NCBI GenBank assembly: GCA_000827205.1
Contig: KN832555.1
Location: forward strand, 980,893 to 1,044,892
Length of the DNA stretch: 64,000 nt
Source: Plicaturopsis crispa FD-325 SS-3
Lineage: Eukaryota > Basidiomycota > Agaricomycetes > Amylocorticiales > Amylocorticiaceae
Reading direction: 5' to 3'
Position 1 is the first letter of the stretch; every line of letters begins with the position of its first letter. Position numbers and translations under genes: made by a program. Below the pieces are notes generated by a model. That model saw nothing but the letters and a program-made list of their open reading frames with translations, ran no database searches and was not told where the DNA came from. Shown here piece by piece: positions 28,289 to 57,118 of the stretch.

Positions 28289-31200
28289 TTACTCCTCCTC
28301 GGAAGAGTTCTCGTCGTAGAGCAACACGTATTCCATGCCTGCGCGGACGTGCTCCCGCGGCGAGACGACAACATGGGACCTACTGTCCTCCCAAATCGCG
28401 TCGTCTTCGTCGTCGGACGAAGACGGCATGCTGATCACGGAGATCTCAGAACCATCATCGGAGCCCTCGTACGCGGAGGAAGGGTGCGACGGAGCGGTGA
28501 CGGGCGAGGTAGAGGGCGACGCCTGCGCACTTCCTTCCCGAACGGGGCTGGACGAGGCTGACTGCGGCATGATGACTACGGATGAAGCCAGCGAATCTTC
28601 ACCGGAGGAGCCATCGGCTGTGAGGTGGTTGGCTTCAACGACCTTTACACTGAGGCATTGCAAAGATTAGCCATTTTGTCCTCAAGGATGTGTATAGTGT
28701 TACTCACGTCACAAGCAGCGGCTGTCCGAAGAGTTGATCAATCCCGTCATGCAAGCTATACCATCCCCAGTAGGTTCCGGGAGCCTCTGGTGCCTGTAGA
28801 TAAAAAAAAACCCGTCAGCTAGCGCAGATACACTGGCAACTTTCTACGCACCCGCAAGTCCGGTTGTAATATATCGACTTCGGCACCTACTGCGACAGCC
28901 CCTACATGGACATCGGTATGTTTAAAGAAACGTTCGCCTTGCGTCCAGTGCAACTCAGTGGTTTCAGGCCAGGCAATATCACCAGAGTTCCGTACGCGCC
29001 AAGACTTGACAAATTCGGCGCCGACTGGGAGGACAGGCTGCTCCATATCCGTGGTCGTTCCCGCGACGAGAACAGCGCTCAGCGAAGGGACAGACGCAGC
29101 TGCAACTTCTTCACCTGGAACCTTGCTATCGTCGCCGGCTGTGTTAGCGGGCGGCTCGGCACTGATCAAATCGGACAGCATCTGCTTCAAGGTAGGAAAG
29201 CTATGAGTGTTGCTGCGTTGCGCCATCTCGGGCTCGGTTTCAGCAGCCTCGGTGAGCGTGAGTTCCCTGAGGGCCTTGTCGAGCGCCGACGTGCTGTCCT
29301 CAGGTGCTGTGATCGCGGCGGGGATGGGGCTGTCTGTAGTTGTCTCTACTTGCTGAAGAGTCTCGGTCGCACGGCGAGGGTCTGATAGGTCTTGGAACTC
29401 CCGAACGACGCGGTCCCACATGAGGTCGAATGTCATGCTAGGCAACGAGGAAGGAGCGGGCGTGGATTCAGTGGACGGTGCAATGAAGTTGATATCCGAC
29501 GATACTGGCGCTGCTGAGGGAACAGGCTCCTCGATTTCCGGAGCCTTGAGAGTGTCATCGTTACCGAGGACCTCGCCTGCACTGTGACCGACGTCGGCTA
29601 GCGAGGAGACGCTGGAAACATATTCCGGTTCGTACCCCTTGGCGCGGTGCTCCAAGAAGGACGGAACCACAAACCGAGGGCCTACAGGCGACGAGAAATC
29701 GACCAGGGTCTCTCCAGGACCTTCCGGTTCCGACGATTTGGGAATGACGGGGGGCGATGAAGTCGTGATGGGGGCAGCACGAGCACCCTGCGGGCGACGC
29801 TGGACCAAGGGGATGGCAGCGTCTGGGTCACGAAGCTTCAGCATGGGATGCCTCGGGGGATGCACGGGAATGGGGAGGGCCTCGCAGTTCTGGCATAGGT
29901 CGTAGTCGGGGCAGTCTGCGTGCATACACTGAAGGTAACAATTAGATCCTGCTTACGCGTACTGCTTAGTCACAACGTACCTTGTACCGCGAACCGCATA
30001 TCCTCTGGTTACATTCTGTCGAGCGAATTGATCAGCAAAAGACATACAGCTCAGTGCACCTGTACGAATTACCATTGCATGTTGCAAAATGCACCTTGTC
30101 GAGGGACAATAGATTGCGGACCTGGGTGTGAAGAGATGAGATCCCGGCCTGAACGGCAGAAGATTATGACAACATACCAAAAGATCGTCCGCCTTGCGGA
30201 TGATCACAAATCCATGTCCGGGGTGCTGCTCGGACGTTATGCTGCGAGGAAAGTCAATCAATACCTGGTAGCAAATCAAGAATAACTAGTCGCCACATAC
30301 GCAAAGCAAGAAGCACACGTGTCGTAGTCAGGGCAGTTCAAGCATTTCTGCGGGAAAAGTATGTCAGTGGAAGGAACAGCGAAAGAGAGATAATCAACGA
30401 ACATAACGATCACCACGAATGCGGTTACCACACATATCGCACGACGCGTTGTGTGCCACCACGGGCTCCTGCTCCTGCACACTCCTGGCGCGATCGTTCC
30501 TGTTGCTGTTCCCTCCATTTATGCTATCCCTTTCGCCGTCTCCGCTGAACACAGTGTGCACGACGACACGCCCCGGCTCACTGATCTCAAAGAACTCGTG
30601 GAACGCATTGTGTCTCTCCGCACCATCGTCCTCAATGCACGACGTGCACAGATCATAATCCGGGCAGTCGAGACATTTGTGCCGTACACCAACTATAGTG
30701 CGGTCGCAAATATCACAAACGACGCCGTTGTGAACGGCCGGCGCGCTAGTGTGCACCCCGTGAGAGCGGGTTGCTATCGGACTACTAGACCGGCTGCGAT
30801 TGTACGAGCGGCCGCGAGGGCTAACAGAGCGCCTGGGGTGTTCGATGTGAGAGCCACGGCTGAGGCCGTGGTACCTGAATGGTGAGGGCGATCGACTCAG
30901 AGCACCTCTGGCGCTGAAAACCCGACCACGAGTGCATCTGCCGTTAAGCCGGGAATCCTGTTCGTAAGGCATGGAACGAGAACGGGAACGGCGACGGGGA
31001 GACTGGGACCTAGAAGATGAAGTGGAATAGCCGCGGCCACGTCCTGCGGTGCTGATACCCTTGTGCGAAGCGTCCGGCACGAAACCAAGTGGCGCATCGG
31101 TTTGCCCTCGTTGGCTGGATATGATACGCTCGAGGTCCACCTTGAAAGCCTCAAGCACAGACTGCACCTCTGATTTACATTGCGAGGCGTGACAACACTG

Positions 31201-32011
31201 CGGTTGGGGCTGAGAAGCGACAGACTGTGCCGATTGCGTACTTGAGGGCACGGGGTGACCGTGGTTCAACCATGTGCCGGCCGGCATGGGGATGGGTGGA
31301 AGCTGGTGGAACGGCGGCTCCTGCAGACGAGAGACCTGCGGGAACAATGTCGGCAGCGAGGGCAGCGTCGTCGTCTTGGCGGGAGAACGGGGGTACAGAA
31401 CTGGTGGCGGTGGGATACGGAAAGGAGAACCAGATGACGTTATGGGTGCAGAGGGATAGAAGATAGGGGGCGGCGGAATATGACTACGGAAAGTACTCGG
31501 GGGTGTCCCAGCACCGACCGAGGAGTCGCTGACGAGCTGCGGCGTACCAAGACCATGCCCAGGAGTCGCGGTCGACGACGAGTAAGTGTCGAAGAGCGAA
31601 CGCTGGGTCGTAGAATTCGAATCCGAGACTATGGAGGGTACGCTGGGTGCTTTGTGCGGCGTCTCATCGTATACGTCGAACCTCAAGAGTGCGCGAGACC
31701 AGGTACGACCATGGAAAGGTGCTACGCACGCAGCATAGTCTTCTGCAGTGTGAACCTCCCTGCGCAACAGCACGCGGGAAGGCTTGGTTGCGTCCGGCGA
31801 GAATAAAAGCTTCGAGAGGTAGTAGTCCTGGCTTATAGGAAAGACACGATAGAGCTGTGGATGGTGCGCGTTAGCAGGGGCCGCTCTAACGACGATAAGG
31901 AGCTAGCGGGCTCACTTCGTGGCAAAGTTCAGTATATGAAGGAAAGAACGAAGCAGTAGGAAACGAGAACTTGCGAGTCTCGTTTCTGTAGGTTGCTTTG
32001 ACGGTGAACAT
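28289..32011 (-). CDS. NBR1: NBR1-like autophagy receptor: PB1, RS-rich linker, three ZZ fingers, four-tryptophan domain
   Basis: Start ATG is 32009-32011. A PB1 half (MFTVKATYRNETRKFSFPTA) is joined to LYRVFPISQDYYL and LLRREVHTAEDYAACVAPFH. A Pro/Ser-rich linker follows, with a conserved CC...KSEVQSVLEAFKVDLER helix (about 31.1-31.2 kb) and an Arg-Ser-rich tract. The three ZZ fingers are VVCDICDRTIVGVRHKC, SCDMCGNRIRGDRYKC and CNQRICGSRYKC, each followed by CPDYDxC. The NBR1 four-Trp domain comes next: LPVGAEFVKSWRVRNSGDIA, WPETTELHWTQGERFF, APEAPGTYWGWYSLHDG and INQLFGQPLLVTVKVVEAN. The tail ends with WEDSRSHVVV and EYVLLYDENSSEEE at 28289. Such proteins carry cargo to Atg8 membranes; EYVLL next to acids could be an Atg8-interacting motif. 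Length is about 1,100 residues with seven or more introns. Confidence 0.87.
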
Positions 32012-32290
32012 GGTGGTAAAGGAAAGAGAGACGAAGGACTTGGAAATGGCGCTGCGGCTTCGTGATATACCGAGGAAATGACCGCAGCAGCCAGCACGTG
32101 AAGCTTATTTCACTGGGGCGCGACGCGCGTCAAGAACGGCTGCAGAAAAGACACGGAGCAGGTTCCAAGAAGTAGATTATTTGATACATAAAGTAGCCAT
32201 TATCCGCTCACTAAAGCCAAGAAGATAAGTAAGGTATAGACACGGTAAGCACTTGAGTCAAGTCGTGGAAGGTCGCGGATGGCCTCACAG

Positions 32291-35200
32291 TCACCAGTGG
32301 AATTGCGGCAGAGCAAGCCATTCAAGCTGGAGAGACATAAGTCAGTACTGTAGTAATAAAACTCGGGGATACCAACTCACCCCGTTCGCATCCCACCGAA
32401 TATGCTTGTCATCGTGGCCTTTGATGACCACGAACCTTCGATATCTTGAGAAAACCTCAGGCTGGGCCTGCAAAGAAAGAACAAAGTCTTTGATCTCCTC
32501 CTCATTGGCTCGGTCCCAATCAGCCTCGCGCGTATGGGCATGCTTTGAGGCGAAAGCGTCGACGCATATCTTGAGTAATTCTTGGGCATCGCAGCCCACG
32601 ACATCGAGGCCCCAGCGGCGCAGGTTTCGACCACAGCGGACATATGCATCTGAAGCAGGTGAAAACGGGCTGCTGGTTAGAAGCTCCAGCTGCCCTTTCT
32701 CAATGGCTTCCAGAAGCCATGCGTGCATGAATTCTTCTCTGTGTGATCACTGTTCGTCAAGATGGTACTTTGGAGAAAAAGAGGGACCTTTTCTTACCGC
32801 TCCAGGGCGTCCGTGGCGTCTCCGTAGGTCTTTGCAACCAAGCCCACGACGGTAGGAAGGATGTAGCATTCCCACCTGTCGTCGCGGTTCGCGATGAGAT
32901 TGCATATGCCAGCTGGATCATCCAGCAATGCATTTGCAGTAAAGGTGACAATCCCAGCTATTACGCGGACCATCAGCAGGGAAGGAACATGACGGTATCG
33001 AACCACGTACTACGAGCAGGGAATATCTCACGAATTCCGCGAGGTGTGGGATGCATATTTTCGTCGGATCCATAGCAGAGGAATGTCGCGGCCATGTCGC
33101 GTCGCCGGTAAGTTAGACTGGGTAGTGAGGAGATCGTTGTCATAGCTGATGCATGGACGAAAACAAACGCTGCAGGCCTCATCTCCCAATTTTTACCACG
33201 GATATCTTGCGCATGGTGTTTGCGCAACGACATTGTCAGATACGACGTTTCTCGCTCGCACGTGCGGCTACTAGCGCCGTCTACCTCGCCCCAGATGAAA
33301 TATTTCTTGCCAGAGAGTTCCTGAGACAGATAGTCGGGAATCTTGAGGTCCTGGGTCATTCGCGCATAATCAAGCCTGATTTGACGGGGGCGGTCTGACG
33401 GGGACGCCTCAGCTAGCGACGTAGATGTGGGGTTCTCGTGCCCGTCGGGCTCATCGGTGCGCGACGTTTTACTGTGATCATAGTGAGCTAGTATCCTGTA
33501 CTGACATAGACATACGGAATACTTACGGCCCCGGTTGCACTTCCAGATTGATCGGCGTTGTTTTCCGGGAGTGAAGCGTTGCCTGAGAGTCTTCAATAGG
33601 TGACATCAGGGTGTTCAACTCAAGGACAGGAGGGTCTAGCTGGACGCTTTCGGCTGGCGTTGACGCTTGCCTCTCCGGCACATCGGTAGGGCTCACCAGA
33701 GTGTGTCTGAGAGTCATTATTAGTTACTTAGTATCATGCTAATGCAATGATTGCTCACTCCCTGTCGAAGAAATCACCGAGGTCGATAGACACTGAGTCG
33801 AAGTTGTCTAGCACTGGGGACTGCGGTACCTGCGAGTCTTCGCCGTCTGCCTCAGGCATTGGCTCATGATGTTCCTCGCGAAGACACATCTCCACCACCT
33901 CATCGCGGTCGAGTTCTCCATCGCTAGGAGTCCCGGTGTCCTGCCTTCAAAAATCCACAAAGCTATCAGTACAGGCGGTATTAACGACCGAATGATAAAT
34001 ACTTACAGCCAGTCATTGAAGGAGAAGGCAGGCTCTTCATATAGAGGAATATTGTCTTGGAAATCATGGGATGTCGGCGACGTCGGGAAAATGGCCTCGA
34101 CAGGTGGGGGTGGGGGCGGCACAGCGGATGAGGAATCATGGCTGGCCTGAAGACGATCTGGCTCGAAAATCCTTTCCGCAATCCTTAGCTTTGTAGCCAG
34201 AGCGTTTGGCGGGAGCCTGGGTACGATGGCGGCGTCGTGAGTCTCCACGGGAGCCTGAGGCTTACCCTTTTTAGGGCGTAGAAAGATGTCTGGTGGCTCT
34301 TTCCGCAGTCTCTCAATGACTGGCGGGCGTGTGATAGGTCGGGAATCAGCCGGAGGGACGAAGTCGTTAGCGGGTTCAGAAGTAGGACTTTGGGATTCGC
34401 CTGCGACGTCGGGTGTTGGAGATTTGGAGAAAAGAGAGGAAGGAGATCCAGCGGATGGTTGTTGTTTGTCTGTCCTAGCTACCTTCCGCGGCGGCTCGCC
34501 ATCTGGCTGCGAGGATATCTTGGGAGGCAAACATATGACATATCAGCCTACAATGTGAATGGGTGCTAGCCACCCGAGACACACACCTGCGACTCAGTCA
34601 CGCTTTGGAAGCGCCGTACCGCAGCTGCGGGAATCCGGATCTTCAGTGCGGGCGTGCTGTCGTCCCGCTTCCTCTTTAATTGAGAGAGTGGTATATCGTC
34701 CGAATCTGTGTCCTGCAAAAACACCACAAAAATGAACTCTTTGGATGCACATGCAAATGCACCACAGAACTCACACGAGGCTCTACTACAGGATTTGCAG
34801 AGGGGACGCCATTCGACTGCTCCCAGCGCTCTATGTCCTTCTTTAGTCTATCAGGATCAAGTTTCGATGTCTTTCCGTAGACTTCTGCATAACGTGCTTT
34901 TTCGAGCTCTGTCACAAAATTATACAGTTAGAAAAGCGCTTCTCATCTGCTCCGTCGCGCAGTAAGAGGGAACATACCAATCCATTCAGGATTCGCTGCG
35001 ATCTCAGTGCCAACGGGGCACTTTTTCGGGTCTGGCACGTCGACACCATGGCTCCAGAAGCTCTCGCGAAGGCGCTTGCAGCTCGGCATTACGTTCGCCG
35101 TAGACAGCCACCTACATGATGATAAACCATGATAAATCAAGTCATAAGCAATGGATTATGCGGACTTACAGGTTGAACCTGTCAGGCCAATCTGCCCACT

Positions 35201-35467
35201 GTGGCAAAAAACCTCATCTATACATTATCGACACACGAAACTGAATATCTTACCTTGACGAGGTAAAGCTACAGGTCAAAGGTTAATGCATCAGTGTGGG
35301 TGGTGATATTGTAATGGTACGTGTAGAGTACCCACCCAGCTTCTCTTGGAGACCTTCCGGGCTGCAAGGAAGACCTCTGCAATACTGCCTTCAGATTGAA
35401 CTTCAAGTCGTTGTGCGGAATGCTACTCACCGACATCCCACTGCTCTTCCTCAGGCTCTTTCGGCAT
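32291..35467 (-). CDS. Chromodomain protein of a basidiomycete-specific type
   Basis: The ATG at 35465-35467 opens MPKEPEEEQWDV. Short exons then give LYLVKWADWPDRFNLTWLST and ANVMPSCKRLRESFW, a chromodomain ending; chromodomains bind methylated histone tails. An exon with ELEKARYAEVYGKTSKL and LKKDIERWEQSN, a long disordered linker with basic nuclear-type patches (LKRKRDD, PPRKVARTDK), and a conserved C-terminal domain follow. The latter includes RQIRLDYARMTQDLKIPDYL, AATFLCYGSDENMHPTPRGI, VVTFTANALLDDPAGICNLI, MHAWLLEAIEKGQLELL and RYRRFVVIKGHDDKHIRWDA, ending LEWLALPQFHW at stop 32291-32293. From memory, this chromodomain plus C-terminal layout recurs in mushroom genomes. About ten introns; around 870 residues. 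A role in chromatin silencing is inference. It lies between two NBR1-like paralogues. Confidence 0.8.
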
Positions 35468-35877
35468 GCTCGCTATCGTGGACGATGGAGAGCAAAGTGG
35501 ACGCGTTCCAGCGAACGCCAGTCGCCGTTTCTCCTTGACAGCTCATAACGCAATCCCCGCTCATATATCGTTGGCAGCGGGAGAACACCGATCGCTGAGG
35601 ATCCCGGACGCGACATGTCCTCCTTTGAGATGCTTCCGTGCAAGAACGCGAGTGAAAGTATGTGAAAAAGTCGCGGCCGCAGCAGCGAACCAAGACAATG
35701 GTACAAACTTTATTTTCCCCGCATCTGCTAGCAGCATTCATGAACATTGTCATTGGAAAACATACTCGACGAAAACGAGTCACACCTTTGCATACATGGG
35801 TATTGTACAGTATTCTACAAAGATCATCAGCTTATTACAGTAAGTTCCCTAAAGAGAAGGAATCAAAAACTCGTAAA
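35468..35877. other. Intergenic gap
   Basis: Upstream region of the chromodomain gene and 3' flank of the second NBR1-like gene. No gene is supported. Confidence 0.5.
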
Positions 35878-38800
35878 TCATGCTCGCTCGTCCTCAGACG
35901 AGCTCGCATATGGGACAACATACTCCGCAGCGACCGGAGCAGAGACAAGGACTTGCGACCTGCTTTCCTCCCAAGCAGCGTCGTCAGATTCAACGGGTGA
36001 AGATGGGATGCTGATCAAAGATAAAGACGACCCGCCCGACCCGTTATCCGACCCCGCGTAAAGAGTAGCAGGATGCGATGGGGCTGTCACAGGAGACGTA
36101 GGGGTGGACGTTGACGAACATTGACCGTCGTCCGTGGCGAGTGCAGGCGGGGTGTAGACTTGTGCAGCGGCAGCAACGCCAATAAACTCGTGAGCGTTTT
36201 CTGGCACTGCCGAGCTGTGGTGTACGATGCTGACGCGTTCATCACCATGGAGGCTACCAATAGCAGGGCTGCCGACGGTGCTGAGAGAGGCAGCGAGTGA
36301 GGATGGTGCTGCAGATGCTTGCTGGCTTGCCAGCAACATCTTGAGCTGACGGTCAATCGACGCAAAGTGATCCGCGCCGCCTGGTTCGACCCTTTCCGAA
36401 GCACATGGTGATACCGAACGCGACGTCACTCTGCTTGCGAGCTCGTCATCGTGGGCAGGGGTGATCTCGGGTAATTCTCCCTCGCCAGTCAAATCGCGCT
36501 GGGCAGCGTCGTGAGCAGGGATGGGGTTGATAAGTTCACGGGAGCCGTTGATATCGTCGAGGAAGTGTCTGATCTCCTGCGCCACGTGAGGCCACATTGC
36601 TTTGAACAAATCGCCGTTGGGGTCCAAGGATAAAGTAGGGAGGATGGCCCCTGCCACAGGCCGCTCTGTCGAGACAGATAAATCTCCGCCTGACGGAGCA
36701 TGGGAAGCCTCAGAGGCGGTAGATACAGGCACTGGACTTTCTGCCGGAGGTGCGAATGGTGCTGGAGCATTGACGGAGAACGGGACTGTACACGCGGGGC
36801 CATATTGGTGTCCTTCGACTGGTAGTGGATCAGCAAGGGGTGTCGAGGGCAATTTAGTCAGAGGTTGGGTGCGCGGGACAACAGGGATAGTAACGCCGGG
36901 GCTGCGTATCTTCAGCAGGACATGGTCAGCAGGATGCACGGGCATTGGCAACGCCTCGCAGTTAGAGCACAGATCGTAATCCGGGCAGTCCGGGTGCGCA
37001 CACTACGACACACGAAGGTCAGTCAAGGCTCGGTAGATGCAAGACACTTGAAGGTACCTTGTAGCGGATGCCCCGAATCTGCTTATGGCAATCTATACGA
37101 AGCGCATTTCAGTGTTGACACTAAACGCGATACATATGATATAACGCACTATCGCAGGTAGCAGGGTGCACGGCCTGATTTGTTAGCCCATCGCGTTTCT
37201 GATCGTGACATTTCCGTCAGCGAATCGACTTGAAGATGCCCTTTAAAAATAGCTTACGATGTAATCCTCATCGCGTCGTATCTTTACGAAGCCGTGACGA
37301 GGGTGCCGCTCTATAGTAGACCTATTGCGCACGATAAGTGAACGCCAATGACTATATGGCGACGGATAACGCACGCGAAACAGGAAGCACATGAATCAAA
37401 GTCGGGGCAATGTGTGCATTTCTGTAGGAGAGAAGTCAATGTTGTGAGTGAGCAGAAGTCCTAACATGGGTACGCACGTAACGGTCTCCGAGGATGCCAG
37501 CTCTGCAGAGATCACAGATCGCATTCTGCCTCACCGCAGGTTCCTCCTTCTGCGTCACAGCGGCAACAGGTGGCGCATCTTCGTCGTCGGACTGCACTTG
37601 CCCATAATCTCTGAGTCTGCCCATTCGAATCTGCCGCACCCGTCTTTCCTTTCTCGCCTTCTCGACAGCCTTGTCCATCGCTACCAAATCATTCGCCTCC
37701 CAAATCTCTGCGAATGCATGGGTCCTATCGTGCTTGACGATATCGCCTCTGAACACGCACGCCCCACAGACGTTGACGTCACCACAGTCGATGCATTTAT
37801 GCCGCAGACCCACAATAGGACCCATGTTGCACAATGAGCAACCAACAAGGTGCACAGGCTGAGGCTTCTCGATCTCGACGAAATGGTGCGCTCCATTGAC
37901 CCCGTAGTGGTGCATGTTGTGTGCTTGGCGCTGGCCTTGTGCTACGCACGCAGAGCAAAGGTCATAATCAGGACAACATGCACACTTGTAACGAATGCCT
38001 TTGATCGGGCAAGCATTGCATGCATCGCAGCGAATGCCAGTATGCACATCGGACGGCAAAGGCGGATTGAGCGACGTGGGCCCTTGCGGTGAACGCCCTT
38101 TATACGAGGTGTAGGAAGAGTTGGGGATAGGAATAGGTACGATCAGTGCAGGGTTATTGGACGCCCCACCACCGGAAGAGCGTACTGCCGGGCCACGGAG
38201 TCCATTCCAGGTTGGCATTGGCATGACCGGGCGAGGGGCCTGTCCACATCGAAGGGGAGATCGTCCGCGGTCATGATTTAGTGGTAACGGGCTACGCCCG
38301 CGACTGGGTGGACTGATGGAACGAGGCCTCGGCGACTTGCTTCTGTGACGCCACGAAGAAGACCACGAGGACCTGCGGGAGCGCACGGGCGTAGGAGAGG
38401 GTGCGCGCGTCACTGGCAGATAACAAGGCACTGGCCCCTGCAGCGTGCGATGCTCAATACGAGAAAGACATCTCGGGACATCGGGTCCAAGAGCTGAGAG
38501 ACGAGGCGGCGACCTGCTCCGACTTGTAGACCTGCTCCGCCTTGTAGACCTTACAGACCTGCTCCGACTATGAGAGGGACCTTTGAAGACATCGACACCG
38601 ACCATAGGGGGACGCGTCGGCGGATTCTGTAAAACAATGATCGGAGGTGGCGTGCGGGACCTACTACGAGACGGACGTCTGTATGAAGCGGGGGACCTAC
38701 TACGAGAGCGACTCATCGCATGGCCGCCCAATATTATCGGGGAATACATGCTCCTGCTCCGAGTTCGAGACCTGCCTCGGCTGTCACTGCGATCCGACGA

Positions 38801-40065
38801 AATACGATGAGGGACCGCGATATCAGAGGCCCTTGGGAGTAAAGTATCTTGGACAGTGTGGGGCGCCCACGCGTTTGTATTGGTATCAACGCTCCCGAAA
38901 GTACCACGCATGATGCGCTCGAGATCCGCCTTGAAGCCTGTGAGGAGGGTCTGCACCTCCGCCTTCGCTTTCGCTACATCGCAGCATGGTTGCGGGAGCT
39001 GGGGGACTGGCGACACGGAAGGCGCGCGTGAACGTGCTTCAACGGACTCCGGGCGGACCGATTCAGGACGCGGACGCATTTCAGAGGGTGCATGAGGGTG
39101 CGCCTCTGAGCGGCTCGTCACTGAAGGTGGACGTGGTGTCTCTGTGCGCGCGTAACTGGGGCCATATTGAGAACGTGAGACCGAACTATCTGGCGTTGGA
39201 CGCGCGGTAGCTCCCTGAGGACCCACTACCACCACCGTTGGAGGAGTGTCCCTGATCCAGGGATACATAGGTGTCGGGGGCAGCGGACGCTCGCGCGTCA
39301 GGGGCACCGGTGGCGGGTTCTGGGGGCTCGAGTCGTCCGACACCGTGATTGGTGGGCGGTGAATGGTATCTGCAGGTCGGGCTATCGGCTGTGACCATGT
39401 ACTGGCATCGCTATTCGACGGCTGCTGACGAAGGCCGGGCATGGCATTCGACACTCCTTCACTAGCCGGAGTGAATGGCCAGCCTGGAGGAGGTAGGATG
39501 TCTTGGCGTTTATTATCCGATAGGAAGCGCTCGTGGAGATACGGATAAAGAGAGTAGCGAAAGATTTGTGGCGGCTGCGCGTCTATGAGCTGTGCGGGAA
39601 GCGCGCTGGGCCATGCATCGGCGCTCAGCGACGCCAAGTCGTCGTGCACTTTGGCTGTACTTTCTGAGGCGGTATCCAGCACAGATTCAGTGCGCGTAGT
39701 AAATGCTTGTTCCTTATCGTGAACCGTGAACCTAAGCTTCGCGTGTGGCCAGCGCCTTCCACCGCCAAGCCCCAAGCGCTGCACAGCGGCGTCGTACTCC
39801 TCCAATGTACGCACTTCATAGCCCAGCATAACATTCCTTTCCTCGTCTGAATGAGGGTAGAATGCCACACCAGAGAGGTATACGCTGAGACAGTGTGTTA
39901 GTGGGAAGACGCGATAGAGCTGTGTGGCGTCAAGTCAGATATGTGAGTCGAAGTCGTTGCACTGCATAATACCTGAGTGCAGAGCTGAGCATAAGAGGGA
40001 AAGACGTCCTCCGCAAAGGAGATCTTGCGAGTTTCGTTGCGATAAGTCGCCTTTACGATGAACAT
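35878..40065 (-). CDS. NBR1-like paralogue: PB1, long RS-rich linker, four ZZ fingers, no four-Trp domain
   Basis: The ATG at 40063-40065 opens MFIVKATYRNETRK, closely matching paralogue 1; GYEVRTLEEYDAAVQRL and RRWPHAKLRFTVHDKE complete the PB1-like part. The linker has the CCDVAKAKAEVQTLLTGFKA helix (38.92-39.0 kb) and repeated Arg-Ser tracts (38.3-38.8 kb). Four ZZ fingers follow: RCDACNACPIKGIRYKC, GCSLCNMGPIVGLRHKC, ICDLCRAGILGDRYKC and CHKQIRGIRYKC. A basic helical insert (KAVEKARKERRVRQIRMGRL) lies between fingers two and three. The C-terminal exon (35878-36951) is disordered with DRQLKMLLASQQAS and ends WEESRSQVLVS and EYVVPYASSSEDERA. Where paralogue 1 has the four-Trp domain this protein has only low-complexity sequence. 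About 1,240 residues. The function is probably a scaffold related to NBR1, but cargo binding through the missing domain is not expected. Confidence 0.82.
38480..38720 (-). repeat. Degenerate tandem repeats coding the Arg-Ser tract
   Basis: GACCTGCT/CCGACTTGTA-type units recur in this segment and near 38.64-38.70 kb (GGGACCTACTACGAGA twice). They encode RS repeats, so the repeat is coding and may change length between strains. Confidence 0.6.
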
Positions 40066-40247
40066 GGTGGCCGTACGAAACAGAAAGAGCGAGCGGTAAA
40101 GTTACGCCACAGCTGTAATAAGTGACCGGGGAGGTATGTACGCTGACGTAATCCCAGGCTACTGCGCACGGGGATCCATTTCCCTTTCAAGTTTCTATGC
40201 AGCCCCGATTATAATTTTTTTGACCAAGTCTTTCTCCACCTGCGACC
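40066..40247. promoter_or_regulatory. Divergent promoter, NBR1-like paralogue 2 / aminodeoxychorismate lyase
   Basis: Two ATGs face away from each other over 182 bases. A TATAATTTTTTT stretch near 40210 is the only AT-rich element. Confidence 0.45.
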
Positions 40248-41660
40248 ATGTCCGGGTCCCCTGCACCGTCTCTTCCCCCTTCGCAGGACTCGTACTGCCT
40301 GCTTTCTTCAACAAAGTACGACCCTTTTCTCAAGTCGCTCAAATGGAACAACGACACCGGACCCACTCCCTTTTTTCTGTTGCCATACCACTTTCACCGC
40401 TTAGCGCTGGCCGCAGAGGTCCACGGCTGGCGCGATGTCGCCAGCGGCCTTACTTATGACGCGCTCAAACGCGAGTGCGAACGCGCTGTTGCAGAGTATG
40501 CGAGAGATGGAGGAGATGCTCCGCTCAAAGTGCGTGCTTTTTATGCTTCGTTTTGCGACCCGGCACCCTTGGATGCTGTCAGGCAAGGCGATCTGGTTCT
40601 ATTTCGCTTCCGCCCTTTTGAGAAGCACTTTCGAGAGATAGTGTGATCTTCCTCAAAGGACACGATACATAGACTCTCGAGTCTTTTCTTTTCTAGGGGC
40701 AGACACGGTAGCACACTTGGGGCGAATATGTGCCAAGGGAATGCACTGGCTGCTGCGCCCTGCTTGGTCTTGAAGGCGTTGCAATGCTTCCGATCTCATC
40801 GCCTGCGCGATTTTCCGTGCGACTTGATCTTGCCTGTACTCCGCCGTAGCTTTGCCCGCAACAGCTACAGAGCCCTTCACTACAATCGTATGTGCACTCA
40901 AGGATTCTATACCGTGTCGACACCTCTTCTCTCCTTCAATTGTTCTCGTTCCAGGAATTTCGCATATTTCCGACCATAGTACTAACGCTTCTCCCAGGTC
41001 CGCATAACACTCTCTCGCAAGGGCGCCTTGCACGCGACCGCCCAGCCCACCCGAGCATTCACCGCCGATCCGTCAGCGGCGTCCTTTTTCCAGCCCGACA
41101 CGGATAATCCCTCCCTCTTCCGGCCCGTGCACACCGTGCGGCTCGACACGCGCCCGACCGCGCCGAGCCTGTTCACGCGCACGAAGACGACCTGGCGCGT
41201 GTCGTACGACGAGGCGCGCGCGCGCACCGGTGTGCCGCCGCTCTCCGTCGCCGCGCAGGCGCAGGCCGAGTCTGACGCCGCCAAGGCGCAGGGCGACCCG
41301 AAATCGCACGCGCACCCGCCTCCGCCGCTGGACGTCATACTGTACAACACGGCGTCGCAGATCACGGAGTGCAGCACGTCGAACGTCGCATTCTACCGGC
41401 ACCGGCGGTGGATCACGCCGCCGCTGTCGACCGGGTGCCTTGCGGGGGCCCTCCGGCGGTGGCTGCTCGCACAGGGCAGGATCAAGGAGGGGGAGATACG
41501 CAAAGACGAGGTCAGGGAGGGCGAGTGGGTGTTGCTGTTCAACGGAGTTGGCGGATGCCGCGTTGCTCGCGTTGTCGGCGTCGGCGATGCGTCAAATTGT
41601 GCAGAGCGGAACGGGAACGGGAAAGTCCATACGGCTGATGCCGCGGAGGAGGATATATGA
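40248..41660 (+). CDS. ABZ2: 4-amino-4-deoxychorismate lyase (class IV aminotransferase fold)
   Basis: The enzyme makes p-aminobenzoate for folate, using pyridoxal phosphate. Exon 1 (40248-40529) opens MSGSPAPSLPPSQDSY and has YHFHRLALAAEVHGWRDVAS. It joins phase 0 across a 468-base intron to VRITLSRKGALHATAQPT (from 40998). Exon 2 has RPVHTVRLDTRPTAPSLFTR, TKTTWRVSYDEARARTGVPP (probable PLP lysine region), DVILYNTASQITECSTSNVA and FYRHRRWITPPLSTGCLAGA, all typical of the family, and ends at TGA 41658-41660. Length is about 314 residues. A perfect TACTAAC branch site (40980-40986) supports the acceptor at 40996-40997. Exon 2 is notably GC-rich compared with exon 1. The intron is eight times the local norm, so a missed small exon is possible. 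Confidence 0.87.
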
Positions 41661-41936
41661 GGGTCGGTGCGGAGGAGGGTTGGTTTATCTGGGCATTTTT
41701 CTTTGGTTATCTCGGAGGTGATATAGGTGGCAACGATTCCGATACGCATGCTCGCTTTCCAGTTGTGGTATTATACATTATATGGTGTACTAACTCCACA
41801 CGATACACGACGTCAGCGACTCTAATACTTACAGGCACACGTTCTTAAACAGCTGGAGTGATTGGGGCAAGACAAGCAGGAATGAATTTCAAATCAATCA
41901 TGAAGCCTTATAACGGTGCAGAGTGAGGTAGATTGC

Positions 41937-44190
41937 TCAGTCGAAGTCGCAAGACGAAGGCGTGCTGCCAAGTGACGCGGACGACCAGCTCGACCCAGCT
42001 GCCGATCGGGCCTCGCCAGACAGTGCCGAAGGTGTATTCCTAGGCGTGGGCTTTTGCTGTTCTCCTGTCATGGATGCACCGAGGCTCGCTACCAAGATCC
42101 TAAGGGCCTCAAGCTGTGCATTAATGTCCATTTGCTGCTTGGCTGTATGCGGGGCGGTAGCGATGGCTACCGCTGGACCAGGAGAGGCCTGCATGTCAGG
42201 CTTGCTTCCATGGGAGATAGGCGTAGAACCTGCGGGCTGCGTAGAATAAGGCGTTGCACCCGGAAGGGCTGCAAGAGAGGTAGGCGTCGCAATAGCACTG
42301 GTAGCAAGATGTCTAGGAAGGTCGGGTGCCACCACACCGGCAAGTGGAGGGGGAGGAGCCCGCTATCACAGAGTTCACTTTAACAGTCGATCGCTACCAG
42401 TCAAGTCAGAATTTGACACGCACTATGATGTCTTCAGTATGTCGGACTCTCACAAAGCTGTGAGCGCCGTGGATACGTGGGCTACATGAATATATAGATC
42501 AATACTGTGCTCGTGACCGTGTAGAATTTGAAAAAGGAGCGTACTAGAAACAAGAAGAGCAAGTGTTGAAACCCGGACAGCTGAGACATTTCTGTGCAGT
42601 GACAGTCAGTCGAGCTCTGATCATGTAGAACTTGGGTGAGAGGAATCATAGAACGCACATAACGATCCCCTTGTATTTCCGACCGGCACATGTTGCATAC
42701 AGCGCGATGCATATCCGTGTCCGCTGTTTCCATTGCATGCCCGTTACGCCCTGCAAAGCTCCGTGTAGCATCGCCACCGTCCTGGGAGACCGCTGACGGC
42801 CGCATACTTATCTCCTCAAACTTTGGGTGGGGAGTCGAGCGTCGCATGTTGTGCAGCTTTAATGCTCCCCCGTTGTTGCAGCTGTAGCACACCTTGAATC
42901 CAGGACATCTCGGGCATGCGTAGCACACTGATTTAAGCGGTAGGCTGCAGAGATTACAGCTTAGGTCTGCGTCCACAACGGAACGTGCGTGGCCACGTTC
43001 CGGAGCCGATCTGTCGCGAATCGAGGGTGGGGCAGGATACAGCTCATAGTTTGATGTAGCGCGCCCTGCTATAGTGGAACTTGGAGCCCATTGGGAGGTT
43101 GGGGGATCGACCACGTACGCAAAGCCTGAAGGTGCACCAGGCCCTGTGGCCTCCGATGCATCGCCCAAAGCCCAAGAAGAACCAGGAGGTAGGTAACAGC
43201 CTTCCTTGTTATCGCCAAATGTCTGTGAAATGGGGTACTGGGAGCGTTCGGCTGTGTCGTGTCCAGACCTCGAGGTCCTAAACGTGTTGTGTATCGCGCT
43301 CCTGAAGTTATCGTCGCCCCCGAATGGAGCCTGAGGTGTTTTCACCAATGGTGGGAGGGGGTGTGGTACGTCTGGGAGCCCGTTATGAAGCGCGTTCCTG
43401 CCCGTCGTTCCGAACGCCTTGTCTAGCGTTGTCTCGAGGCTTGCCATGAACCCTGTAATGAGAGCCTGGACCTCCGCCTTCGCGGTGGAGACGTCACAGC
43501 ACGGTTTCTGAAGCGACTGCTGCGATGAGGGTACCTGGGACGATTCTTCCGCATTGGTTGGAGTCTCGGGACGCGTGGGCGCCGTTACCTTCGACGTGAA
43601 TGCAAGCAGTCTGAAAAGGGCAAGTCGGAAATCGTGAACTGCGGGTGAGTCCGCGCTAGACGACGAGATAAGGCCACTCGCGTCGATGGAAATGTTGATT
43701 GTCGGAACAGCCGGCGGCGCCTCGTTCTGAGGGGGTGTCATTGGCGCTGCTTCGCCGTGTGTGAGCGGTGCATTGTCGGTGATCACCGCAGCGTTGCATT
43801 TTGAGCAAACACTGTCATCGAGAGCCGTCTCCTTATCGTTCAGCACGAACTTGAGCAGCATGCCGGGGTAGCGCTTATCGAGGTATGACTTCAGAACCCC
43901 TGCATAATCTTCTGCGTTGTGGACCTCGCCGGCAAGTGGGTAAACATCGCTTGGATTCAGGCCGGGCCCTATTTCGACGGCGGAGAGAAAAAACGCGTTT
44001 GATTTGATAACAGACCCGAGGATAGGTGAAGCCTGTGCATAGAAAACGCGTCGAGTGCATTGCGACAACGTCTGCCGCTTTTCGGACTCACTGCTAAAAC
44101 ATCAAGCAGCTCTTCGTATGTCGGCAGGCCGTCGTACGGCAGGATGAACCTGTGCGTCCTGCCGTGATACGTCGGTTTTACATAGAACAT
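41937..44190 (-). CDS. Short NBR1-like paralogue: PB1 and two ZZ fingers, no four-Trp domain
   Basis: The ATG at 44188-44190 opens MFYVKPTYHGRTHRFILPYD and splices to ASPILGSVIKSNAFFLSAVE. GEVHNAEDYAGVLKSYLDKR and MLLKFVLNDKETALDD finish the PB1-like part. The linker carries CCDVSTAKAEVQALITGFMA (43.43-43.5 kb). ZZ 1 is SCNLCSLPLKSVCYAC; ZZ 2 is CNMCRSEIQGDRY spliced to KCLSCPGFNTCSSCF and then HGAHSFVRVRHTEDII. The last exon has MDINAQLEALRILVASLGAS and ends SLGSTPSSCDFD at 41937. About 665 residues. It lacks the RS tract, one or two fingers, the four-Trp domain and the shared tail. The exon layout matches paralogues 1 and 2, so it is a shortened or early-branching copy. Function is unknown; PB1 could let it pair with the other two. 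Confidence 0.78.
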
Positions 44191-44441
44191 GGTGATTAGG
44201 TTTTTGAAATTTTGTCGTCTGTCGTCTGGACAAGACCGGCGAGTCGAAGAAAAGTCGAAGGAAAGCCGAGAGCAAGCCGCGGCGTCGAATCTCCACGTGG
44301 AATTAATCTTGGTTCGGCCTCGGTCGGGGCACTTTTCAGGCGCGGCGGCAAATGTAGCGGCTGAACGCGAACTTGTAGATAAAGATTCAAAACTTATATA
44401 GCTCTGCTAGGTCCTGCTAACTTTTCTACAACGACAGCAAC
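44191..44441. promoter_or_regulatory. Divergent promoter, NBR1-like paralogue 3 / F-box protein
   Basis: A 251-base region separates the two ATGs. A TTATATA element at 44394-44400 lies about 45 bases before the F-box ATG. Confidence 0.45.
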
Positions 44442-45599
44442 ATGGTCTCCAACAACGCCTGCTTACCGCCCGAACTATGGCTCCAGATATTCCACTGGGC
44501 AACACACGACCCCGAGACACTCGACCATCTCACCTCGTCGTACAAGCCATTCCAATCCATCGCACCTAAAACCCTCGCCGAGAACCTGCGCACCAAGCGC
44601 GTGCTGGTCCTCGTATGTAGAGCTTGGAGGGCATGCGTCCTCAAGATGCTCTACGAAGACCTCCGCGTCGACAGAGGCCAGCAGCATCTGCGCGAAGTGT
44701 TAAAGTCGGCAGACGGTTTCGGAGGATGTGTACGCCGTGCAGAGATACCCTACAGCAGCACCAGCACAGAAACGTACGTTCGACCAGCTCTCGCCCTCCG
44801 CATCCTCGAGCAGTGCCCACACCTTGAGGTGCTGGTCCGCCCAAAGCCCGATTACGACCCCGAGCGCCGCTTCGAGTTCGACGCCAACTGCCTACCACTC
44901 CCCTCCGTCAAACGCCTCGAGTGGTGGCAGTATGATACTGCTACGCGTACCGGCGGCATTAACTCCCTCCGCGACGTGCTGCTCTGCACCCCCAATCTCC
45001 AGTACCTCATCGTCGGTGGCGATCTGGGCTGGCCAGGCCTCATGAGCGGCAAGGCCACAGTCGCACTCCCCGCGCTACACACCATCCGCTTCCAGCGCAC
45101 GACGCCCATATTCCTCCGCCGCATCTCGCAGTGGACGCTCCCCGCGCTCACGCACGTCGTCTTTGACACCCCCGTCGCCATCGAGCACGGCACGATGCAG
45201 CTCTTCTGGGAGACGTTCGGCGCGCAGCTGCGCACCGTGGAGTTCGGCAAGAGCCTACGGTTCAGCGTTGAGGACCAGCTCACGCCGATGCTGCAGCTGT
45301 GTCCGCAGCTTGAGACCGTCAACTATCATGTCTACTTCGCCTGCCCCGAGCCCGCGCTTACCCAGCCGCACGCCACGCTCTCGGCCGTTGGGCTGCATGC
45401 AGACGGGAACCCGTTCGGAGGCGAGGATTGGGAGTGCATGCAAAAGCAATTCTCGTTCCTCTGTGGCGATGCTTTCCCCGCGCTGAAGAAGATCACCCTA
45501 TACGGCCAGTGGAAGTTTGCGGAAGCGCATATTTCAGAGCTTGTGGCAGACTTTACGCGGCGCGGACGCGCGATCGAGTTGGCGCCTTCGTTATTCTAA
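44442..45599 (+). CDS. F-box protein
   Basis: A single 385-codon exon starts at ATG 44442. The N-terminus, LPPELWLQIFHWATH, is an F-box opening; the helix LVLVCRAWRACVLKMLYEDL closes it. F-box proteins bind Skp1 in SCF ubiquitin ligases and choose substrates. The rest shows leucine-spaced segments (LRILEQCPHLEVLVRP, LLCTPNLQYLIVGGDL, MLQLCPQLETVNYHVY) that look like degenerate leucine-rich repeats. Mushroom genomes hold hundreds of such genes, so no substrate can be guessed. The gene appears intact. Confidence 0.83.
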   Translation: MVSNNACLPPELWLQIFHWATHDPETLDHLTSSYKPFQSIAPKTLAENLRTKRVLVLVCRAWRACVLKMLYEDLRVDRGQQHLREVLKSADGFGGCVRRAEIPYSSTSTETYVRPALALRILEQCPHLEVLVRPKPDYDPERRFEFDANCLPLPSVKRLEWWQYDTATRTGGINSLRDVLLCTPNLQYLIVGGDLGWPGLMSGKATVALPALHTIRFQRTTPIFLRRISQWTLPALTHVVFDTPVAIEHGTMQLFWETFGAQLRTVEFGKSLRFSVEDQLTPMLQLCPQLETVNYHVYFACPEPALTQPHATLSAVGLHADGNPFGGEDWECMQKQFSFLCGDAFPALKKITLYGQWKFAEAHISELVADFTRRGRAIELAPSLF

Positions 45600-46175
45600 A
45601 TTCTAGTGGTCTGGTACGCCGTTTCATAGAGGTTAGTGCTCATACTCTTAGTTACTCGGCGTTCGCTCACCTCTCATAGGTTCTTCGCTTTGCTCACTTC
45701 TCCGTTATTCACTATGCCTACTAGATGTCGACCCTGATACGTGATCCCGCAGTTCCTTCAAGTCGTTGTGCCATGATGCTTAATTCGTTTGTAAAGTACC
45801 TTCTAATAAATACTAGACAATTCTGTTCCTCGAGCTTTACTTCACGCAAATTTACAGCTCGTCAAATCTTCAGCAACTTTTCGCGTAGAGTACTTATGAG
45901 CAGTCGTGCATACAGGCCCCTTCAAATCCCAATGACCAAGTGGCGTTTGTTTGTCTTGGCACCAGAGAACCAAACAACGCCTACGGGTCGACCGTCTCAG
46001 TCTGGGATCTTGAACTTGGACCTCCATCATCAACTTGATCTTCTCACCTGCTTGAACAAAATCTGGCAGAAATCCACGTCTGTGCTGGGAAGACTACAGC
46101 AGTATCAGGTATGGCTCTACAAGTCGTTCGGGATTTTCGATGCTTTAACATCGACATAGCAGGTGGCACGGCATC
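45600..46175. other. Intergenic between two F-box genes
   Basis: A plus-strand frame of 144 codons (from 45725) lacks conserved content and ends just before the next gene. I regard it as the 3' UTR of one gene and the leader of the next. Confidence 0.5.
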
Positions 46176-47315
46176 ATGGCATCGCCCTTGCCACCGGAGC
46201 TTATCGATTGCATTCTTGATTACATACGTGTCCCCAAATCGCACTCCTACTACTCTCATCCCAAGAGCAAATTTTACCCCTTCCTCTTCATCAACAAGCT
46301 ATGGCACGATGTAACAGAGCGCCGTCTCTATCATTCTGTCTGTGTAAACGACCCGAAATCGGCTTCATCGCTCTGTTCGACGCTGACGGACTCGCGGCGG
46401 ATCGCATCTTATGTCCGAGCGCTCTGCTTTGGAACCAGATTCCTCGATTTCGACGAGAGTACAGACCACATCGCGATCCTCCGTCTCTGTCCCAACGCCG
46501 ACACCATCCAGATCTTCGGATACAACGAAGACACTATACCAGAGTTCTGGGCTGCTCTGGCTTCGAAATCTCCCACTGTGCTCGCGATTGGGCGACACGG
46601 CACAGGCAAAATAACAGGGCTCCGGTTGTGCACTACAACAAAGATGTTACGGATGATGGGGTTGTGGACACGTTTGAGGAAACTGGACATCCAGTGTGCG
46701 GCGCTGGGTGGCGGGTACGAGGACACCGCTGGATTAGATCTTTTGCCTGAAGGATGCCTCCCCGAGTTGCGCACCGTCAACTTTGGCGGCGGAGTGCCCT
46801 TCCGCGACGCTCATCTCACCGCTCTCGCGAAAATGGCACCCTCGCTCCAGGAACTAGCAATGCCGCTCGACAAACAAAACTCTGTTAGCGACGCGGCTCT
46901 GTTCTCGAGCCTTCGTCGATGGGCTCGAACCCTCCGGTCGTTGTCGCTGACTCGATACTGCAGCGTGAGATCCGTCGCCGTGCGCTCGTCTCAGTGGGAA
47001 GAGAGCCTGCAGGACGTGTTGCCGCTAATGGTGAACTTGGAGTACCTCCTGGTATATGCAGACCTGTTCAGCATATCGTCCCTCGCGAGATGCGGCCCCA
47101 AGCTGCGCAGTCTCGGCTACTATGAAATACGCACGCGCGCCGAACTGGACGACTTCACGCGCCATCTTCGAGACACCTCATTCTTGCCCAATCTCCGAAA
47201 ATTGTGGGTCAACAGTACCTCGCGCCGCGTCGATCTTGCGTCAGGACGAGGCGAACTCAAGCTCTGGCATACTTGTTATTCCCGAGGCATTATCATGGAT
47301 CACACATGGGTGTAG
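46176..47315 (+). CDS. F-box protein, second copy type
   Basis: One 379-codon exon starts at ATG 46176. PLPPELIDCILDYIRV begins an F-box-like helix and FLFINKLWHDVTERRLYHSV completes it. Leucine-rich segments follow (ILRLCPNADTIQIFGYNE, GLWTRLRKLDIQCAALGG, MVNLEYLLVYADLFSISS). The sequence is not a recent copy of the first F-box protein; the shared feature is layout, not identity. The substrate is unknown. The TAG stop is at 47313-47315 after IIMDHTWV. Confidence 0.83.
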   Translation: MASPLPPELIDCILDYIRVPKSHSYYSHPKSKFYPFLFINKLWHDVTERRLYHSVCVNDPKSASSLCSTLTDSRRIASYVRALCFGTRFLDFDESTDHIAILRLCPNADTIQIFGYNEDTIPEFWAALASKSPTVLAIGRHGTGKITGLRLCTTTKMLRMMGLWTRLRKLDIQCAALGGGYEDTAGLDLLPEGCLPELRTVNFGGGVPFRDAHLTALAKMAPSLQELAMPLDKQNSVSDAALFSSLRRWARTLRSLSLTRYCSVRSVAVRSSQWEESLQDVLPLMVNLEYLLVYADLFSISSLARCGPKLRSLGYYEIRTRAELDDFTRHLRDTSFLPNLRKLWVNSTSRRVDLASGRGELKLWHTCYSRGIIMDHTWV

Positions 47316-54540: not shown

Positions 54541-57118
54541 CTAGTAGTCCGACCTCGTGAGCCGCGAAATCGTGAACACGCCCACAATGACCGCGGCCAG
54601 CGCACCGATGCTCGCAGGGAGCAATAAATCCTTGGGTATACCGAATATCTCGTCCTGCGCAGGCACGTGCGGGTGCGATGGCGGCGTGAACGACACGCCC
54701 TCCGGAAGCACCGCTTCGCCCTTGTCGAGCTCCTTCGTCTCCTCCTTCGCCGCTGCCGCTGCCTCCACGGCCTTACCCTCAGCCTTGCCGGAGCCTGCCT
54801 CCGCCCACGCTTTGCCGCCTTGCACGAAGAGCACGACGCGGTCCGTCCCTGCCGCCCGTGCGATCTTGACAGCGTCGGTCACGTCCGTGTCCGATGTGAT
54901 CAGAACGGTGTCGCCGTCTGCATCTGTGTACGACAGATGGAAGTCCTCTGGGTCCGGCCGCGCGTGCCCATCGTCCTCCTCGGGGGTCTCGAAGAACGGG
55001 TCCGTCGCCAGCTTCCCCGTGACGATATCCCGCAAGTTCTCCACGTTGTCGTGCCGCGCCTGGAATCGGTGCGTGCGCCCACTCGGCGTGCGGAACTTGA
55101 ACACGTACGTCCCATCGTCAACGGGCAGAGCCGACGGCGCAAGGCCCGTAATCGAAGGGAGCGCGCGGCTGTTCTTCCGCGAGTGGCCTTCGAAGACAGA
55201 GCCGTGGTCGTCGTCCATGACGGAGGCGGAGTCGTTCGGGTGGACCTCAGAGTGCGGCGATTGCGGCAGCCGCGAGAGGCTGTGGTGGAACGAATTGTCC
55301 GTGGGCATGTGCGATCCCGACATGACGGACTCTGTGTCGTCGCCACCGCCGAGGGAGTCGAAGAAGCGGCCCCACATAGGCCCACCTTCCTGTTCTTGAA
55401 CGGCCTCGCCTCCGCCTGTGTTGTCAGATCCCATCGAGTTCATCTGCACAATTCCTGTTAGTTCAGACAGAAACGAAACCGAAAGCGCTGACGCCGTACC
55501 TGCTCGAGGGTCGCATAGGTGAGCTTGAGCACGTCCACGATGGCGACCAAACGGCCATCAGCCTCGACAACAGGCAAGTTGAGGTAGTGACCATCTGAGA
55601 GTAAGGATGTAAGCAAGTTGAACGTCGCAAAGTCCACAATTGTACGCACTGTGCATCTTTTTCAGCGCATCATGTACGCTAAGCGTGGGCTCCGCGGTAT
55701 CCGGATGGGGCGTCATCACTCTGATGACACTGCATCTGCCCGCATCAAGCCCTGCCGCAATGACACGCAACACGACGTCCTTGCTGGTAAAGATACCCGC
55801 AATCTTGGGCGGCGGCGCAAGCGGGCCATGCTCGCCCTCCATCACACACACGGCCGTGGTGCGGCGCTCCTTCATGAGCTTCGCAACCTCGCGCACAGTC
55901 GTCTTGGGGCCGACCGTCGCGGGTTGGGTGCGCGCGTCCATGACGGTCGTGAGATCCGGCAGTGCGGTCTTTTCGCGCAGCGCGTCGACGTACGCGAGCA
56001 TCGCCGCGGCCTGGGGGTTCGTGCCCATGCCCGAGCCGAGCTCCGACTGCACGCCCGCGAGCGCGCTGTAGAGCTTCTCGGACGCGGAGGAGCTGCGCTC
56101 GACTTTGCCGAGAGCCTCGTGGAACACTTTCGTGATATCGAGGAGGCCGACGACGTTGCCTTCTTCGTTGCAGACGGGCTATAGGGCATTTGTCAGCGGC
56201 GTGTTTCTTTTGTTTGGAGGACAGTTGTGACATACAAGATGCCTAAAGTGCCTTGTAACCATGAGCTGCAAGGCTTCTGTCGCGCTGGTCGTGTCTCGGG
56301 TGACCATAGGGCCGCGCGTCATGATCTGGCTGACCGGAGTCGTGTGTGGGTTCAGACCGTCCGCAGTCACCTGCGTATGAGTTAGCTGCTGAACACTAAA
56401 CGCGCTGCCAAGTCCACGCATACCCGATAAGCAAGGTCCTTCGCGGTAAAGATACCGCTCAGTCCCTCTTCGTCATCTACAACCAACACGCAATCTGTTC
56501 GTTTCGCGGCGCAGAGCTGGCTGGCCTCTGCGACGGTAATATTCTCGGGAACGGTCAGCGCGGGACTCGGCTTGAGCGCGGCGACCGTGCCTTTCGCGAC
56601 GGCGGATTTGCCGCTGCGCTTGCCTCTCCCGGGGGCATGCGTAGTCGATATCGTGCGCTTCCGAGACAGCTCAGACTCGATCTTCTTGCGTATCGCCTGT
56701 GGGAGTTTCGCGATGTGAGCACTCGTCCTCCGCGGGTACGTTGTTCGCAGACGTGATATATGATTCGACGCTGAGTGGGCGCGCCCGTCGAACACGTATG
56801 GGTTCGAGGACATGGCCGGGGAGATAGTGGTGTATGCAACACGTGTGTTGGGTGCATCCATACGCCCTCTCCAGCGTGCAGTGCCTATGTATGACAAAGA
56901 TGGACAGTGGGACTGACCTCGTCCTTCTTGGACTGCTTTCGCCTCGTCTCGTACAGACCGCCTGTTTGCCCTGATACAGCAGACATTGACACGGAAGGAC
57001 CGGATTGGTGACGGCTCAAGGGGAGCGGTGAAGCCGAGCGGTCTGGAAAGCTGACCGAGTTTGCAGATGCGCTTTTGTGAGAAGGCGAGTGCGATGCTGG
57101 CACGGGAATGCGGGACAT
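54541..57118 (-). CDS. CBS-domain and PB1-domain membrane-anchored protein (Mug70-like)
   Basis: The ATG at 57116-57118 gives MSRIPVPASHSPSHKS. After a Ser-rich N-terminus come CBS domains: ALTVPENITVAEASQLCAAK with RTDCVLVVDDEEGLSGIFTA and KDLAYRV; VSQIMTRGPMVTRDTTSATE with PVCNEEGNVVGLLDITKVFH; then ATVGPKTTVREVAKLMKERR with IAGIFTSKDVVLRVIAAG; and SVIRVMTPHPDTAEPTLSVH with LPVVEADGRLVAIVDVLKL. A PB1 domain follows: GTYVFKFRTPSGRTHRFQAR, then DFHLSYTDADGDTVLITSDT. The C-terminus has a hydrophobic span (LLLPASIGALAAVIVGVFTI) before RLTRSDY at 54541. The order CBS x4, PB1, transmembrane tail matches fission yeast Mug70-type proteins. CBS pairs usually bind adenosine nucleotides. About 750 residues. 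Confidence 0.88.

Follow-up and report, generated by a model that had tools for sequence, protein, structure and literature searches.

A 64,000-nucleotide stretch of the Plicaturopsis crispa FD-325 SS-3 genome (hereafter the window; KN832555.1, positions 980,893 to 1,044,892, on contig 2 of a 33.2-Mb genome in 49 contigs) contains three complete minus-strand genes, here called A, B, and C, that are old copies of an NBR1-like gene and differ in the binding modules they have kept. NBR1 is the ancestral soluble autophagy receptor, and most nonmetazoans encode a single one (PMC9582228), in agreement with a description made earlier from the letters of this DNA (the original prediction), which had treated NBR1 as usually single copy. 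Our preferred explanation, to which we assign a probability of roughly 0.55, is an old local duplication of a single fungal NBR1-type receptor gene followed by complementary loss of modules and a division of roles. A has kept the FW domain together with three ZZ fingers, B has kept four fingers and the C-terminal tail but no FW, and C retains only the N-terminal head, a helix, and two fingers, stopping at the fourth intron of the family.

Gene structures and common origin

The models of A, B, and C were built by hand from genomic DNA, with intron edges chosen by GT..AG and homology, so the GT-AG boundaries at 18/18 introns are true by construction. Removal of 8, 6, and 4 introns, each of 52 to 67 bases, leaves uninterrupted proteins, and the models bear out the predicted strand and outer limits of the trio (28289 to 44190 of the window), with the stop codon of A closing at 28289 and the ATG of C opening at 44190. 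Gene A (28289..32011; 9 exons, 1088 residues) is NBR1-like and encodes a head, a helix, an Arg/Ser-rich linker, three ZZ fingers, an FW domain, and a conserved tail. Gene B (35878..40065; 7 exons, 1284 residues) encodes a head, a helix, an Arg/Ser-rich linker, four ZZ fingers, and a tail in common with A, and lacks FW. Gene C (41937..44190, with its own stop at 41937; 5 exons, 667 residues) encodes a head, a helix, two ZZ fingers without the acidic pocket, and a short unrelated tail. Pfam recovered the finger counts of the original prediction (3 ZZ stretches in A, with an E value of 7.3e-26, 4 in B, and 2 in C), and ZZ-type cysteine cores averaged 0.0 in 500 composition shuffles per protein. 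The differing module content claimed in the original prediction therefore stands, and the check by domain profiles that it had proposed returned the 3/4/2 fingers and FW in A; for the predicted PB1 start, the same check gave a subthreshold match in A and no match in B or C.

Intron positions and phases are common to introns 1 to 6 of A and B and introns 1 to 4 of C (phases 0,0,2,0,1,0 for both A and B; 0,0,2,0 for C), and we therefore trace the three genes to one NBR1-like ancestor. Introns running through the fingers anchor the correspondences A2 = B3 = C2 and A3 = B4. BLASTP comparisons gave E values of 9e-61 (fingers) and 5e-24 (head) for A and B, 6e-21 and 1e-9 for A and C, and 9e-17 and 2e-8 for B and C. 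The C-terminal tails of A (28292..28510) and B (35881..36099) are alike over ~70 residues (BLASTP E 9e-10), and the likeness of C to A and B ends where the family's intron 4 sits. Synonymous sites are saturated in 9/9 block comparisons (proportion of synonymous differences [pS], 0.71 to 1.02; synonymous divergence [dS], at least 2.19), while nonsynonymous divergence (dN) ranges from 0.35 to 0.77 and is well under dS in all nine. Homologous introns (14 pairs) resemble each other at chance level, the lowest results being 13, 15, and 27 of 300 shuffles, which is unremarkable for 14 tests. Saturated synonymous sites together with unlike homologous introns indicate that the copies are old, and the earlier claim that they are NBR1 derived and not a fresh tandem array is upheld; the divergence values indicate that selection has acted on the proteins through most of their history. 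In a tree built from 15 individual ZZ fingers, 0/12 inner branches were well supported; the pairs A3 and B4 (94/94) and A2 and one finger of S. pombe (88/78) were the only groupings with support above 80, and none passed 95/80.

Searches of the whole genome place this family at a single locus. FW (N_BRCA1_IG) matched once, in A. Whole-protein searches at E values up to 1 returned 12, 13, and 9 matches for A, B, and C, of which 12, 12, and 8 lie at this locus; the two others, one of B (E 0.07) and one of C (E 0.015), are chance-like. Of 10 genomic matches to Pfam ZZ, 7 exceeded the cutoff. Three of those 7 fall outside this locus: one is on contig 9, within a frame that we take to be SWI3-like, and the other two belong to one gene of contig 10. 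The ZZ search missed the diverged fingers of C and the PB1 search missed all three heads, so statements of absence from the genome should be read as lower bounds.

ZZ fingers, the FW domain, and predicted cargo binding

The ZZ cores were located by cysteine pattern in A (ZZ1, residues 412 to 438, 30637..30717), in B (ZZ1 and ZZ2, residues 662 to 752, 37757..38029; ZZ3 and ZZ4, residues 833 to 925, spread over five introns in the gene model, 36958..37516), and in C (ZZ1, residues 392 to 418, 42878..42958; ZZ2, residues 479 to 505, over intron 2, 42545..42697). In p62, the ligand is held at its free amino group by Asp129 and Asp149 and at its first peptide bond by Asp147, and a single change at any of the three lowers binding ~30-fold (PMC6098011). 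Counted by eye at the corresponding places of the cores, these acids are present at 8/9 places in A, 10/12 in B, and 0/6 in C. In B they are complete in three of the four fingers, ZZ2 retaining 1/3; in C the pocket residues are N/G/K in the first finger and N/G/N in the second. The first finger of C nevertheless keeps all eight zinc ligands, and a model of it searched against the PDB with Foldseek had p62 ZZ domains as its best structural matches, filling ranks 1 to 16 (TM score by target, 0.72 to 0.85; probability, 1.00). With the ligands and the fold kept and the acids gone, this finger is predicted to fold without holding a free N terminus, and gene C probably cannot bind N-terminal cargo in the manner of p62. 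Our preferred explanation would make A and B receptors for different cargo, acting through mostly intact acidic pockets and different additional modules, and B is best read as an FW-less ZZ receptor. The suggestion that the paralogues act as decoys finds some support for C alone.

The rival that fares best is that C is itself a receptor whose fingers have acquired a new ligand surface and bind something other than a free N terminus. The intact zinc ligands of its first finger and the retention of its protein sequence against saturated synonymous sites are what such a receptor would show, and in S. pombe Nbr1 further surfaces, each specific to particular cargo, are reported outside the pocket for N termini (PMC9233695). 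C has, however, no FW, shared tail, or recognizable Atg8 motif left, and we consider this reading rather unlikely.

The FW domain of A (residues 880 to 972 over two introns, 28640..29034, the low end being approximate) matches N_BRCA1_IG with an E value of 9.2e-19 (68.4 bits against a cutoff of 28) and, in the PDB, the sequences of ILRUN (6vhi) and human NBR1 (4ole); B and C have no N_BRCA1_IG match. The four-Trp domain of the original prediction is thus confined to A as claimed, but it does not have four Trp in place: compared with ILRUN and human NBR1, Trp occupies the first two signature places, the third is one residue out of register, and the fourth is Leu. In Chaetomium thermophilum Nbr1 (CtNbr1), alanine at F651, D654, D658, or W763 abolishes binding of the mannosidase Ams1 in each case (PMC9233695). 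At those places, mapped by spacing since CtNbr1 was not among the matches, A has Leu for F651, Gly for D654, the conserved Asp for D658, and Leu for W763. The FW of A thus seems to have lost three of the four Ams1-binding residues, and its pocket looks degraded. The FW of S. pombe Nbr1 also lacks key pocket residues, F651 and W763 among them (PMC9233695), so cargo binding by A has probably moved off this pocket, and the FW of A would no longer use it as a di-glycine pocket. The contrast between a full and two stripped relatives accordingly holds for the stripped B and C, whereas the supposedly full member is itself altered.

The search for Glyco_hydro_38N led to one locus, at 2424500 to 2430500 of contig 3, where 4 exons matched; it holds an Ams1-like alpha-mannosidase gene. 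In its first 2900 bases the sole ATG-GGN-GGN stands at 2737, inside the gene body and in another frame, so that no Met-Gly-Gly start was seen; the start region has a subthreshold Pfam match (E 0.009), and the start is our own reading. An Ams1 without Met-Gly-Gly agrees weakly with an altered FW pocket in A, weakly because the predicted first exon comes from reading the sequence.

No UBA domain was among the Pfam matches of A, B, or C at E values up to 1; UBA has been lost in most fungi and is not required of a fungal NBR1 (PMC9582228). A difference between the tails in a possible Atg8 motif (Y-V-L-L in A, Y-V-V-P in B) was dropped as a candidate, such motifs occurring at chance level.

The conserved head and helix

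The heads of A (residues 1 to 95, 31666..32011), B (39716..40065), and C (43832..44190) each extend over intron 1 and form a conserved block, with B 51% and C 33% identical to A. The original prediction had described a shared PB1 start; the shared block is there, but its PB1 identity is weak. In A, Pfam PB1 matches residues 2 to 41 with an E value of 0.011 (16.1 bits against a cutoff of 23.6), and B and C have no match. Profile-profile comparison of the head with PB1 (hhalign) gave a probability of 2% and an E value of 0.023, and a profile search of the PDB with the head returned no PB1 and three weak matches, to CooA. Lys5 is invariant and basic residues are kept in all three heads, while the acidic D-x-D-G motif is absent from 3/3. 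The same motif is present in 5/5 PB1 domains of this genome placed in the comparison, namely, four of the five whole-genome PB1 matches and the gene on contig 10; the fifth match (L016) is subthreshold, stood outside the count, and also lacks D-x-D-G by eye. If the heads are PB1 domains, they would then be of the basic kind.

These features bear on the proposal that A, B, and C form hetero-assemblies by PB1-to-PB1 contact. In its favor are the conserved N-terminal block with its basic residues and invariant Lys5, the weak PB1 match in A, and a B head richer in acids (Asp or Glu) at OPCA places (7, versus 4 in A and 5 in C). However, basic heads without the acidic motif make chaining among themselves unlikely, the membership of the heads in PB1 is unproven, and a review describes loss or degeneration of PB1 among fungi (PMC9582228). 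We therefore do not follow the original prediction on this point, the absence of D-x-D-G having set back PB1 chains among the three, and we hold such assemblies to be improbable.

On contig 10 (1152500 to 1157000, minus strand), a gene absent from the whole-genome matches of the three proteins encodes a product with multiple ZZ or ZZ-like fingers and an acidic-motif PB1 head above the Pfam cutoff (E 5.6e-7 after two exons were joined by hand). This acidic PB1-ZZ protein is a candidate partner for the basic heads, which under our preferred explanation would join an acidic PB1 protein of this sort and not one another.

A second conserved segment, of 49 residues from a single exon, lies downstream of the head in A (31075..31221), B (38861..39007), and C (43376..43522; BLASTP to B, E 5e-10 with 55% identity). 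The segments align with 11 invariant columns, in line with the linker helix that the original prediction had seen in all three. AlphaFold2 predicts the copy of B, the one that was modeled, as a single helix of 26 residues (11 to 36), with predicted local distance difference test (pLDDT) values of 91 to 94 in two central blocks. By eye, a 4-3-4-3 spacing runs through Val18, Leu22, Phe25, Leu29, and Ile32, with Thr at the last place in C, and some fungal NBR1 proteins have a self-interacting coiled coil (PMC9582228). We prefer this segment to the heads as the surface by which the proteins may join. C could then join A or B through the common helix while having no grip on N-terminal cargo, and in doing so might tune, cap, or dilute receptor clusters.

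The linkers between helix and fingers in A (residues 286 to 404) and B (residues 378 to 655) are SR-like, being rich in Arg and Ser. RS/SR pairs number 17 in A versus 10.4 expected from shuffles (reached by 21/2000) and 41 in B versus 17.0 (0/2000); the linker of C has 6 versus 2.1 (15/2000), yet only 6.4% Arg.

Weighing the explanation against known NBR1 proteins

Several results weigh against the explanation that we prefer. The PB1 label of the heads is weak. The last exon of C cannot be claimed as a descendant of the tail of A or B, an origin that we rejected because its scores against those tails were reached by 245 and 221 of 1000 shuffles. Joining by the helix is read from the model of a monomer. 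The model of the first finger of C has a mean pLDDT of 73.9 and a predicted template modeling score of 0.57, and its Foldseek E values run from 4.3e-3 to 2.1e-2, none at or below 0.001. Finally, W/F/Y-x-x-L/I/V motifs occur near chance (12 versus 12.2 expected in A, 14 versus 11.8 in B, and 9 versus 6.7 in C), so that family membership is the ground for assigning an Atg8-linked receptor role even to A.

That B, C, or both are decaying copies without function would fit the truncation of C, the loss of its finger pocket acids, and the second finger of B, which lacks two of three. Against this stand open frames of 1284 (B) and 667 (C) residues through 6 and 4 introns and, in 9/9 comparisons after saturation, a dN well under dS. 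The latter is not what a long-dead gene would show, although a recent loss of constraint would be compatible with it; we think decay quite improbable. A last reading, in which B and C are ZZ proteins of other descent that happen to lie near NBR1, would suit the poorly supported finger tree, but the common introns and phases, the head, the helix, the tail of B, and the whole-genome matches, which save for two chance-like ones fall at this locus, leave it almost no credence.

Two unrelated genes interrupt the trio, as had been predicted. Between A and B is a multiexon minus-strand gene whose start has a chromo match under the Pfam cutoff (E 1.5e-4), and between B and C is a plus-strand gene for a class IV aminotransferase. 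Directly upstream of C, at 44421 to 47315 on the plus strand, are two long frames (392 and 388 residues) that look F-box-like by eye. A PB1 domain (E 7.4e-9) is encoded on the minus strand at 54541 to 57263, in a frame that ends in a likely membrane anchor and adjoins a CBS domain (E 6.9e-8), probably forming a single CBS-PB1 gene ~10 kb from C.

Fungi with one NBR1 protein that carries FW and two to four ZZ fingers are known (PMC9582228, PMC9233695, PMC12042473). CtNbr1 and Beauveria bassiana BbNbr1 resemble gene A in having a head, several ZZ fingers, and then FW, and their four ZZ match the number in gene B (PMC9233695, PMC12042473); they differ from the P. crispa locus in that here there are three copies, B and C lack FW, and A has three ZZ and altered FW residues. 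S. pombe Nbr1, which A matches with an E value of 5e-10 (PDB chain 7dd9), has three ZZ and an FW with lost pocket residues, like A (PMC9233695), whereas A additionally has the conserved head and helix and the S. pombe gene, as far as the texts consulted show, is single. In the fungal NBR1 literature that we searched, as far as its texts were accessible, a local NBR1 trio with FW-less members was not described, and the titles and abstract openings searched described no FW-less NBR1 copies in a basidiomycete.

The closest parallel to the fungal trio comes from animals, in which NBR1 was divided between NBR1 itself and p62. Animal p62/SQSTM1 arose once, in early animals, as a shortened NBR1 paralogue without the coiled coil and FW (PMC9582228), and like B and C it keeps an N-terminal head and ZZ. 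Of the p62-type makeup (PB1 plus ZZ without FW), ZZ is present and FW absent in B and C, and Pfam PB1 gives no match in either. Unlike p62, B and C keep the helix and several ZZ, no UBA was found in them, and C lacks the acids that hold an N-degron. Their location and introns suggest that B and C originated independently of p62. This fungal lineage may have repeated an NBR1/p62-like split on its own, with A as an FW receptor, B as an FW-less multi-ZZ receptor, and C as a cargo-blind scaffold or brake, joined by their helices and with basic heads on an acidic PB1-ZZ protein; in this complete form we consider the scenario rather unlikely.

The locus thus has three old, strongly diverged NBR1-type copies close together, each with a different subset of binding modules, and the trio looks like one receptor split into several jobs. 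Gene C is predicted from its sequence to be a ZZ protein of the NBR1 family that is unable to hold a free N terminus. An independent NBR1-derived set with complementary losses in a fungus, if borne out, would amount to a natural experiment on which modules of the receptor are separable, FW from ZZ and cargo binding from assembly.

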